A DNA stretch of 64,000 nucleotides. Source: Mycolicibacterium chubuense (GTDB taxonomy: Bacteria > Actinomycetota > Actinomycetes > Mycobacteriales > Mycobacteriaceae). Of the stretch, positions 35,977 through 38,351 are shown in pieces. The stretch is from positions 244,351-308,350 of the forward strand of contig NZ_JYNX01000060.1 of NCBI RefSeq assembly GCF_001044255.1, written 5' to 3'. A model generated the notes under the pieces. That model did not search any database. It worked only from the letters and a program-made list of their open reading frames with translations, and was not told the origin of the DNA. Each line of letters begins with the position of its first letter. Position 1 is the stretch's first letter. The position numbers were made by a program, and so were the translations under genes.

Positions 35977-36038
35977 CCCAGACGGAGATGTGCTTCAACC
36001 CTTCGGCGGTTCGGCAGCCGGTACTGTTGGTGGTCACC

Positions 36039-36509
36039 ATGACAGGCAGGTGCAGGATTCGTTGGCTCGCGCTGATGCTCACTGTCCTGGCGGCGAGCGG
36101 TGTCTTCGGATCGGGAACCGCCGGGGCTGACGCACTCGACGACTACCGCTGGGAACGTCGCCCGCTGCTGGTCTTCGCACCGACGGCCACCGACCCCGGC
36201 CTCGTGGAAACGCTGAGCCGAATCGAGGCGAGTCGATGTGACTTCGTCGGCCGTGACATGGTGCTCGGCGTTCTGGTGAACGTGGGCACCAGCGCTCTCG
36301 ATGGGAAAGCGATCGACGCCGAGGAGTCACGGCGGCTGGCGCAGCAGTATGGGATCGATGACAACGCTTTCCGCGTGCTGTTGATCGGAAAAGACGGCGG
36401 CGAGAAGCTGCGCTTCACCGACGTGCCGGACCTGCAGGCGATCTACACCGTGATCGACGGCATGCCGATGCGCAGGGGCGAGATGCGGACGAACACGGAG
36501 GGGTGTTGA
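36039..36509 (+). CDS. DUF4174 family secreted protein
   Basis: A 156-aa protein with an N-terminal signal peptide (about residues 1-30, ending TAGADA) and the DUF4174 core: YRWERRPLLVFAPTATDP, SRCDFVGRDMV, YGIDDNAFRVLLIGKDGGEK and IDGMPMRRGEM. The core resembles a thioredoxin-like fold without a CxxC. ATG 36039 gives the best signal peptide, although earlier in-frame codons exist. Function unknown. Followed 2 bp later by the CIA30 gene. Confidence 0.8.
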   Translation: MTGRCRIRWLALMLTVLAASGVFGSGTAGADALDDYRWERRPLLVFAPTATDPGLVETLSRIEASRCDFVGRDMVLGVLVNVGTSALDGKAIDAEESRRLAQQYGIDDNAFRVLLIGKDGGEKLRFTDVPDLQAIYTVIDGMPMRRGEMRTNTEGC

Positions 36510-36511
36510 TC

Positions 36512-37120
36512 ATGGGGATGCGCGCGCTGATCGGCGTCGTGATGGCCTGTTCACTGGCCGTCATGTCCTGCGGAAGCATCGAGCCGTCCGCCCGGGCCGC
36601 CCCGCCCGAAGGATCCGACGTCGTCCTCGTCGACCTCGGGAACCCCGGCGAGGTGGCGACCTGGACGACGGTGAACGACCCTGTCATGGGCGGTGAATCC
36701 ACCTCGGCGGTCAGCTTCGGCAACGGTGGCCTCGTGTTCTCCGGGGTCCTCTCGCTCGAGAACAACGGCGGCTTCGCCTCGGCGCGCGGTCCGCAAGACC
36801 CCGGCATCGGACAACGGGCGACGGGCGCGACGTCACTGCGCGTGCGGGCGGTGGGCGACGGCAAGACCTACGTGCTGAAGGTGGGCGACGCAACGCAGCC
36901 GTGGTCCTACATTCAGCGCTTCACCACCGAGGCCGGCGTCGCGCGGGCCTACGACCTGCCCGTCGCGGGCTTCGAACCGGTGGGCATGCGCTTCGACCCC
37001 GCACCCGAGGCGCCGCGGACCTTGGACTCCTCACGCATCAACGAGGTATCGCTCTACATCCTCGACAAGCAGGAGGGACCGTTCACCCTGACGGTGAACC
37101 GGATCGACGCCGACATCTGA
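36512..37120 (+). CDS. CIA30-domain (NDUFAF1-like) lipoprotein
   Basis: A 202-aa exported protein with a lipoprotein-like signal (AVMSC, Cys21 or so). The CIA30 beta-sandwich is recognisable from WTTVNDPVMGGESTSAVSF, GVLSLENNGGFASARG and YILDKQEGPFTLTVNRIDA. In eukaryotes CIA30 assists complex I assembly; the bacterial secreted homologues are uncharacterised. ATG 36512 is placed 8 nt after GGAGGGG. Likely co-transcribed with the DUF4174 gene. Confidence 0.78.
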   Translation: MGMRALIGVVMACSLAVMSCGSIEPSARAAPPEGSDVVLVDLGNPGEVATWTTVNDPVMGGESTSAVSFGNGGLVFSGVLSLENNGGFASARGPQDPGIGQRATGATSLRVRAVGDGKTYVLKVGDATQPWSYIQRFTTEAGVARAYDLPVAGFEPVGMRFDPAPEAPRTLDSSRINEVSLYILDKQEGPFTLTVNRIDADI

Positions 37121-37130
37121 GGACCCGCGG

Positions 37131-38351
37131 TCAGGACCGCCGAGCTTTCGCCCACGCGGTGAACGATCCGACTGACCCTGACCGAGGGCGCTCCAACCAG
37201 GGCCAGGGATGGAGCGCGCCGACGTCGAGCCGGGATGCCCGGCGCCGCCAGCCGGGAACCGGCGCGAATGTCGTCGCCAAAGCCATGCCGTGCAGCACGT
37301 GCACGGGGTCGCCGCGGTGCACCTGCACTTCGCGGCGGGTGGCGAGGTCGGCCAGCGACTGGGCGAGAAACACCAGGCGGTTCTGCGACAACCGAAGCCG
37401 TCGCAGAAGCGGCTCGTCGAAAACGAAGACCACCGGCAGATCAGGATGCGCCGCGACAGCGGGATCCCGATCGCTCAGACTCTCCGCGGTCATCCAGACC
37501 GCCTCCGGTTGGGCGGTGTGCCGCGGGGTCGCAGGGCCGCCGGTGATGTCGGGATGGTCGTCATGACGTAGCCGAGAGTCGGTCGTGTTCCGCCGCTCGG
37601 GTTCCTGTGTGGCGGGCCACCGCGCGATCGGGCAGCGCCGCTCGAGCGGACACGACGCGCAGAGACCGGGCGCCCGCTTCTCCACCTGCCAGCGGGAGAA
37701 CCCATAGGCCTTCCCGGTCAGCGCACCCACCGTCCATTGCCACCCCAGGCGGTTCGCCGCCCGGGAGCCGTCGAGCAGATGGCGGAACATCAGCTCCTCG
37801 CCGTCGCGCCAGCCCCACCCCTGACGAACCGTCCAGTGCGACGCGAGCCACATCCGGCTCTGATTGGTCAGCCAGCCGGCGGCTAGTTCGCTCCAACACA
37901 GATCCAGGCAGCGCGCCTCGCTCGACCACTGGTCGGGGGCGGGTTCCGTATGCTCGACAATGTTGTATCGCAACGATTCTGACGACGCGACGCCGACGCG
38001 GGCGTACAGGTGACGGGCGTATTCCTGCCACCGCAGCTCGTCACGGAACTTGGCGACGTCGGGTCGTGGACCGCCGGCGACGTGGTCCCACACCTCACGC
38101 AGGGTCAGCAGGCCGTGCCGGATGTACGGCGACAGCCGCGACGCGCCGCGACGCTGCGGCGGCCACACCTCGTTGCGGCGCCGGGCATAGCCGGTCACAT
38201 CGAAGGACTGCAGCGCGGCGTCGGCCGCGGTCTGGCCGCCCCGCGCGGGCGGGTCGCTCGCCCGCGGTGGCGGTGTGGTCAGATCACCCAGCTGATCGTC
38301 CACCCACGCGCGGATCGCCGAGTCGTCGGTGGGCGGGACGGGCAGGCGCAC
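37131..38351 (-). CDS. Photolyase/cryptochrome-like protein with permuted domain order
   Basis: A 406-aa protein. Residues about 45-250 form the photolyase FAD-binding helical domain (SRLSPYIRHGLLTL, DELRWQEYARHLYA, MWLASHWTVRQGWGWRDGEE, DGSRAANRLGWQWTVG), ending in a Cys cluster CASCP-x5-C (Cys231, Cys234, Cys240). Residues about 283-350 resemble the alpha/beta antenna domain that in ordinary photolyases comes first: VWMTAESLSDRDPAVAA, LPVVFVFDE, RLSQNRLVFLAQSLADLA and VHRGDPVHVL. The order is thus FAD domain then alpha/beta domain. The GTG start is 7 nt downstream of TACACT, so it is probably leaderless. Activity unknown. Confidence 0.8.
   Translation of the reverse strand: MRLPVPPTDDSAIRAWVDDQLGDLTTPPPRASDPPARGGQTAADAALQSFDVTGYARRRNEVWPPQRRGASRLSPYIRHGLLTLREVWDHVAGGPRPDVAKFRDELRWQEYARHLYARVGVASSESLRYNIVEHTEPAPDQWSSEARCLDLCWSELAAGWLTNQSRMWLASHWTVRQGWGWRDGEELMFRHLLDGSRAANRLGWQWTVGALTGKAYGFSRWQVEKRAPGLCASCPLERRCPIARWPATQEPERRNTTDSRLRHDDHPDITGGPATPRHTAQPEAVWMTAESLSDRDPAVAAHPDLPVVFVFDEPLLRRLRLSQNRLVFLAQSLADLATRREVQVHRGDPVHVLHGMALATTFAPVPGWRRRASRLDVGALHPWPWLERPRSGSVGSFTAWAKARRS

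Follow-up and report, generated by a model that had tools for sequence, protein, structure and literature searches.

A photolyase-like protein of Mycolicibacterium chubuense with the FAD domain in front of the alpha/beta domain

We analysed a stretch of 64,000 nucleotides of the Mycolicibacterium chubuense genome (assembly GCF_001044255.1, contig NZ_JYNX01000060.1, positions 244,351 to 308,350; hereafter the window), and found that a gene on its minus strand encodes a 406-residue protein that is probably a light-driven DNA-repair enzyme with its two halves in the reverse of the textbook order. Ordinary photolyases carry an alpha/beta domain in front and a domain binding flavin adenine dinucleotide (FAD) behind; in the window protein the FAD domain comes first, a photolyase-type alpha/beta lobe follows, and four cysteines are invariant throughout the family. 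We put a probability of about 0.72 on the protein being a light-driven DNA photolyase of the short photolyase-like (SPL) kind that carries an iron-sulphur (Fe-S) cluster and repairs cyclobutane pyrimidine dimers (CPDs). The features of the gene, in window positions, are as follows.

37131..38351, minus strand: photolyase gene, 406 residues, GTG start (open reading frame, family matches and relatives)
37695..38249, minus strand: predicted FAD-binding helical (catalytic) domain, residues ~35-219 (match to 1tez and 1owl over residues 35-209; PF03441)
37908..37910, minus strand: Cys148, first putative Fe-S ligand (invariant in 117/117 sequences; matched in alignment by a Cys in the PhrB-type photolyase of the same genome)
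37632..37661, minus strand: Cys231, Cys234 and Cys240, the remainder of the putative Fe-S site, C-x2-C-x5-C (invariant in 117/117)
37506..37631, minus strand: variable linker, residues 241-282 (most columns poorly conserved in the family alignment)
37152..37505, minus strand: shortened photolyase alpha/beta (antenna-type) domain, C-terminal, residues ~283-400 (family-profile and hhalign matches)

Domain order and its conservation

An earlier note, made from the letters of the sequence, had proposed that an FAD domain precedes an alpha/beta domain in this protein, and this was borne out: Pfam returned the domains in reversed order, family profiles and hhalign agreed, and the order is kept in relatives. 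The FAD domain was recognized directly, with FAD_binding_7 matching residues 156-212 (E 1.3e-6, 28.4 bits against a cut-off of 27) and an 8-HDF-type photolyase model giving the best NCBIfam match at residues 37-208, far below that model's own cut-off. A single-sequence phmmer search of the PDB came closest to class I photolyases, with chains 1tez and 1owl aligned to residues 35-209 of the protein at E 5e-13. With the family profile as query this class I match reached E 1.9e-30, and the next was PhrB (4dja), an Fe-S enzyme, at E 1.3e-6 over profile positions 33-267.

A scan of genomes for the same order, which the earlier note had suggested, found it in relatives. Among 202 matching stretches of species genomes we found 159 relatives and kept 80 loci; identities in these were 55-97%, and both domains were present in 79, the exception (L050) being cut at its start. 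The titles of the kept loci are actinobacterial in all cases except L019, L020, L036 and L073. Full-length matches, our own included, were found in 10 of the 198 genomes of the genus sample, in 23 of the 298 of the order sample (one with an in-frame stop, and two more genomes with broken or partial matches) and in 26 of the 396 of the phylum sample. One relative (G591:C52:24661-25807) has a frame change inside its FAD domain, at model position ~197, which may be a sequencing error or a real frameshift, and was left as two pieces. A viral origin was rejected: 65 stretches of viral contigs matched a family-alignment pattern and none of them encodes a relative, while the eight phage records with a match reach residues 18-260 at most. 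No cyanobacterial plasmid yielded a match covering 80% of either query.

The C-terminal alpha/beta lobe

The single-sequence evidence for the second domain was weak, and so we turned to family profiles, building separate N- and C-terminal models from 69 actinobacterial-type sequences. In 38 loci with photolyases and relatives, the N-terminal model hit canonical photolyases in their C-terminal half. The C-terminal model hit them at their N-terminal start, with independent E-values of 5e-8 (L129), 9e-8 (L130), 6e-7 (L140), 1.5e-5 (L131) and 1.8e-5 (L138); the remaining canonical loci gave 0.001 and up, and several gave no match. By hhalign, the C-terminal alignment matched the canonical N-terminal regions of 21 loci (probability 96.6%, E 5e-10, 73 columns) and the C-terminal domains of Deinococcus relatives (98.0%, E 1.6e-13, 138 columns), and 20 control alignments of other open reading frame clusters from the same loci, some of them probably not genes, stayed at or below 0.53%.

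In ten whole genomes the C-terminal profile found the family itself in three and then, as the five best matches outside it, the N-terminal parts of five canonical photolyases (E 2.7e-7 to 4.2e-4, with the background starting at E 0.04), all ten genomes holding canonical photolyases and five having been chosen after such matches had already been seen there. For the remaining five genomes the profile reported no canonical photolyase even at E 10. These matches uphold the assignment of the C-terminal ~120 residues to the alpha/beta domain; the earlier note had placed its motifs at about 283-350, and we find that the lobe is present and extends to ~400.

At ~118 residues (283-400) the lobe is shorter than the 142-154 residues of 11 canonical domains measured by their end motifs. 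W385 is found in all 117 sequences of the family and W400 in 116 of the 116 alignment rows that have a letter there, and we read the conserved SF(S/T)AW of the lobe end as resembling the FTPF...W that terminates the canonical domain. The profile, hhalign and domain-length/end-motif evidence supports the reversed order as an exchange of whole domains, cut near the domain boundary.

Residues of the FAD domain and the four cysteines

Conservation was counted in 117 distinct sequences, drawn from 130 rows and including the window protein. N163, R166, W181, D194, S196, N200, W204 and W206 are invariant in all 117, E105 and W108 are kept in all 116 rows having a letter, and M167 is kept in 114 of 117. 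Those that align with the FAD and lesion sites of class I enzymes, namely E105, W108, N163, M167, W181, N200, W204 and W206, are thus nearly invariant in the family; N200 would presumably be the equivalent of the Asn beside FAD N5. The aligned counterpart of N200 in the cyanobacterial class I enzyme is N386, an FAD-contact residue according to a passage of PMC9426592. The genome's own PhrB-type photolyase (L090) differs at two of these sites in a profile alignment, with His at N163 and Leu at M167.

C148, C231, C234 and C240 are likewise invariant in all 117 sequences. The three-Cys cluster noticed earlier at the joint is therefore conserved, as C231, C234 and C240, and belongs to a set of four that includes C148. 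In the profile alignment C148, C231 and C234 fall on cysteines of L090, in which the last spacing is longer (13, versus 6 in the window protein); the class I photolyases 1tez and 1owl have no Cys at the place of C148 within the aligned region. The cysteines are spaced 83/3/6 in the window protein versus 85/3/6 in Phr4 of Synechococcus RS9916, whose Fe-S cysteines are given as C169, C254, C257 and C263 in a passage of PMC9426592 (a comparison of spacing, not of aligned sequences). Domain order, its conservation, the cysteines and the retained class I-type residues are thus established in the sequence.

Comparison with described photolyases

Proteins of this order have been described, contrary to what the earlier note supposed: in passages of PMC9426592 and PMC13274461, the Phr4/5-Phr6, NewPHL and SPL proteins are FAD-first or lack an N-terminal lobe. 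Haney et al. 2022 (PMC9426592) ascribe 'reverse domain order' to the cyanobacterial Phr4/Phr5 and Phr6, together with four Fe-S cysteines, and report UV-C (ultraviolet C) survival 20 to 30 times lower in phr2, phr3 and phr4 mutants, the phr4 mutant being normal under UV-B. As portrayed in the passages of that paper, Phr4/Phr5 and Phr6 of marine Synechococcus and Cyanobium resemble the window protein in having the FAD domain first, the photolyase domain second and the last three cysteines spaced 3 and 6, and they occur fused or split, as does the window kind, which is fused here and split in Deinococcus sp. QL22 (see below). Phr4/Phr5 differ in being cyanobacterial and in being two genes in all the marine Synechococcus of that paper, a comparison made by description and not by alignment.

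In passages of PMC13274461 'NewPHLs or SPLs' make up a single group, whose domain topology is inverted and which acts on CPDs in single strands. NewPHLs (Emmerich et al. 2020) have an FAD domain at the N-terminus and a Z-domain at the C-terminus. The window protein shares this topology, and the same side of the FAD-domain tree, with putative NewPHLs that we identified by layout; one of these, L087, lacks Fe-S cysteines at the aligned places, whereas the window protein has four. NewPHL membership finds no support in the C-terminal part, which matches the alpha/beta domain but none of the corresponding domains from five putative NewPHLs; no named NewPHL was among the proteins compared.

Some SPL members have four cysteines, and an SPL of Rhodococcus fascians was reportedly purified by Xu et al. 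in 2021 with FAD, Fe-S and CPD repair. Passages of PMC9649867, PMC9178010 and PMC9498864 describe SPLs as having no N-terminal alpha/beta domain and a class I-like catalytic domain, and propose an FeS-cluster CPD photolyase. The window protein is SPL-like in lacking an N-terminal alpha/beta domain (its FAD domain starts at about residue 35), in the nearness of its catalytic domain to class I CPD photolyases (1tez, E 1.9e-30), that of SPLs being near to classes I and III, and in the four cysteines of its family (117/117), and it differs in that the lobe said to be missing at the N-terminus sits at the C-terminus. The passages that we read make no mention of a C-terminal alpha/beta lobe on actinobacterial Fe-S SPLs, which does not prove that it has never been reported. 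Since reverse order and four cysteines have already been described, the protein would best be filed as an Fe-S SPL / Phr6-like photolyase.

Two canonical groups are more distant in layout. FeS-BCP/PhrB (4dja) aligns with the window family in its FAD domain and in three of the four Fe-S cysteines, but has canonical order and a DPRP-type N-terminal domain; the corresponding PF04244 is absent from the window protein at E 10 (Pfam), and the genome's DPRP gene lies at another locus. Class I CPD photolyases (1tez, 1owl) have a related FAD domain and the opposite domain order.

Proposed function and alternatives

The scheme that we infer, covering fold, cofactors, the part of the cluster, substrate, packing of the C-terminal lobe and antenna pigment, would run as follows. 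The N-terminal helical domain would hold FAD and be braced by a [4Fe-4S]-type cluster on C148, C231, C234 and C240, and the alpha/beta lobe behind it would pack on it as a cap, perhaps as an antenna. Reduced FAD, excited by blue or UV-A light, would then split a cyclobutane pyrimidine dimer by handing it an electron. We favour CPD repair because N163, M167 and N200 are of the class I type, which we weighed above the Fe-S cysteines, and the nearest solved proteins, being class I photolyases, lend this further support. The Asn near FAD N5 is kept in class I, DASH and NewPHL proteins and replaced by water in prokaryotic (6-4) photolyases, according to passages of PMC12083526, and (6-4) activity therefore does not necessarily follow from the presence of Fe-S cysteines. 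The genome also holds a class I-like photolyase gene (L001, with a full FAD_binding_7 match) and a PhrB-type gene at another locus, which would make the window protein a third photolyase, perhaps one serving single strands or another light colour.

Several observations weigh against an SPL-kind CPD photolyase with an antenna-type lobe. S196 is invariant (117/117) where the class I enzyme 1tez and the Deinococcus relatives carry Asp, and so the flavin site is not identical to that of class I. The genome's PhrB-type protein also has Asn at N200 in the profile alignment, after a three-residue insertion and at low confidence, and that alignment therefore lends nothing to the argument from N200. 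According to passages of PMC9426592, phr4/phr5 raised the UV-C survival of E. coli with no significant difference between light and dark, and (6-4) activity was predicted for the Fe-S form Phr4/Phr5 and Phr6. As to the lobe, DNA_photolyase was reported at residues 300-356 with E 0.07 and 13.5 bits, under the Pfam cut-off of 26.6, and so the search with the two Pfam profiles proposed in the earlier note gave the reversed order with its second match below threshold. When 37 C-terminal sequences were scanned singly, only 5 reached PF00875 at E 0.01, the lowest value being 0.0034; that of the window protein gave E 0.0098, under the curated cut-off. The C-terminal profile found no significant match in PDB (best E 0.5), the top 9 of its 13 rows being cryptochromes or photolyases.

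The four-Cys signature shared with Phr4 (85/3/6 there, 83/3/6 here) would also suit an Fe-S (6-4) photolyase, the activity that Haney et al. proposed for Phr4/Phr5 and Phr6; PhrB-type (6-4) enzymes carry Fe-S cysteines (passages of PMC9178010), and the phr4 mutant was sensitive to UV-C but not to UV-B (passages of PMC9426592). We consider this unlikely for the window protein, which has Asn at N163 and whose family has mostly Met at M167, against His and Leu in the genome's PhrB-type protein, itself encoded by a separate gene. An Asn of the N200 kind is reported to be absent from prokaryotic (6-4) enzymes (passages of PMC12083526), the PhrB-type alignment showing no difference there. A (6-4) specificity read from the cysteines alone was demoted to a rival on N163, M167 and N200.

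It is less probable still that the protein is a cryptochrome that has lost DNA repair and serves in light sensing or regulation. The sparse distribution of the gene (10/198 genomes of the genus sample) and the class I-like and PhrB-type photolyases already present in the genome would agree with such a role, but the positions aligned with the repair site hardly vary and Pfam found no output domain. That chance, a frame-shift or an assembly artefact joined a photolyase FAD domain to unrelated sequence, as the weak single-sequence Pfam support for the second domain might suggest, is highly improbable and refuted by conservation in relatives, with both domains in 79 of 80 loci, the same motifs in 117 distinct sequences and the profile evidence.

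Gene neighbourhood

In the window a sodium/proton exchanger gene on the same strand precedes the photolyase gene at a distance of 73 bases, and a DUF4174 gene that shares 7 bases with a CIA30 gene (35988-37120) is convergent with the photolyase gene. Elsewhere a DUF2256-type zinc-ribbon motif stands beside the photolyase gene in 28 of the 80 loci, 27 times upstream within 400 bases on the same strand and once just downstream, and in one further locus it is 2 kb away; the motif had no match in the window. Pfam confirmed it in L015 alone, together with DUF3253 (L015:5621-5998), and a DUF2256-type protein is a possible functional partner of the photolyase. A serA-like gene (identified by Pfam in L018) belongs to a cluster with members in 15 loci; in the 12 where it was placed it is always downstream on the same strand, the six nearest copies being 10-26 bases behind the photolyase gene, with ilv and leu genes around. 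In Cryobacterium sinapicolor (L055:5032-5871) a rhodopsin gene (Bac_rhodopsin) lies just upstream of the photolyase gene, and the rhodopsin cluster occurs in four loci, in three of them upstream within 121 bases. The DUF2256 neighbour and the rhodopsin gene of L055 were counted for the photolyase reading.

FAD-first relatives and the origin of the reversed order

Relatives of other kinds also carry the FAD domain first. Deinococcus plasmids hold three fused copies (L083-L085), matching the N-terminal and then the C-terminal model in the window's order, and in the plasmid of Deinococcus sp. QL22 (L086:2408-3699) the reversed photolyase consists of two genes overlapping by 4 bases, encoding a 257-residue FAD part and a 173-residue part annotated as hypothetical, which matches the C-terminal model (independent E-value 1.2e-16). 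This repeats in another phylum the phr4/phr5 split of Synechococcus described in passages of PMC9426592. Alphaproteobacterial proteins such as Ruegeria L087 are FAD-first as well, and were taken for NewPHLs by description and layout; L087 lacks the Fe-S cysteines at the aligned places. The C-terminal domains of the five putative NewPHLs showed no detectable kinship to those of the window family by hhalign (0.22%) and a weak resemblance to the Deinococcus C-terminal domains (13.7%, E 0.002).

A further mycobacterial FAD-first photolyase-like protein (L143; G019:C132:126700-129400, minus strand) has no Cys at the place of C148 and is closest in the tree described below to a Persicobacter protein (L120); the C-terminal domains of the two showed no detectable kinship to the alpha/beta lobe or to Z-type domains (0.13% for the latter). 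Six other genomes of the genus sample have matches scoring like L143, at 80.8-89.6 bits.

A tree, read without a root, was built from the FAD domains alone, with 56 rows (33 FAD-first, the family members L147 and L148 among them, and 23 canonical); the canonical rows were picked from family-profile and tblastn matches, are unclassified and include no named class II, DASH or eukaryotic proteins. A single branch sets FAD-first proteins of several kinds apart from the canonical ones; its support is 100/100 in the tree from which the PhrB-type row and the Tolypothrix row were dropped, and 86/81 when these two rows, with very long branches, were added. The tree program warns of long branches meeting, among which is the branch of the canonical rows. 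A clade made up of just the Fe-S FAD-first proteins was not recovered in the former tree, and it was not rejected either (p-AU 0.298). Our analysis adds that the alpha/beta lobe, which SPLs are said to lack at the N-terminus, stands here at the C-terminus, and that FAD-first proteins of several kinds occupy one side of the tree.

According to passages of PMC9649867 and PMC9498864, the photolyase/cryptochrome family has been proposed to stem from SPLs. We tentatively suggest, giving it somewhat less than even chances, a different history: domain order may have switched just once, at a deep branch of the photolyase/cryptochrome superfamily, and so founded one FAD-first lineage uniting SPL, NewPHL and Phr4/5-Phr6. 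Its Fe-S members would have kept a true antenna-type lobe of the alpha/beta kind after the catalytic domain (encoded, in one Deinococcus, by a second gene that overlaps the first), and SPLs would be permuted two-lobe enzymes and not lobe-less ancestors. If the SPL lobe is present at the other end, SPLs are not simply one-lobed, and the root of the family becomes a question of domain order. A natural permuted photolyase, both fused and split, suggests in turn that the two lobes need no single order of linkage.
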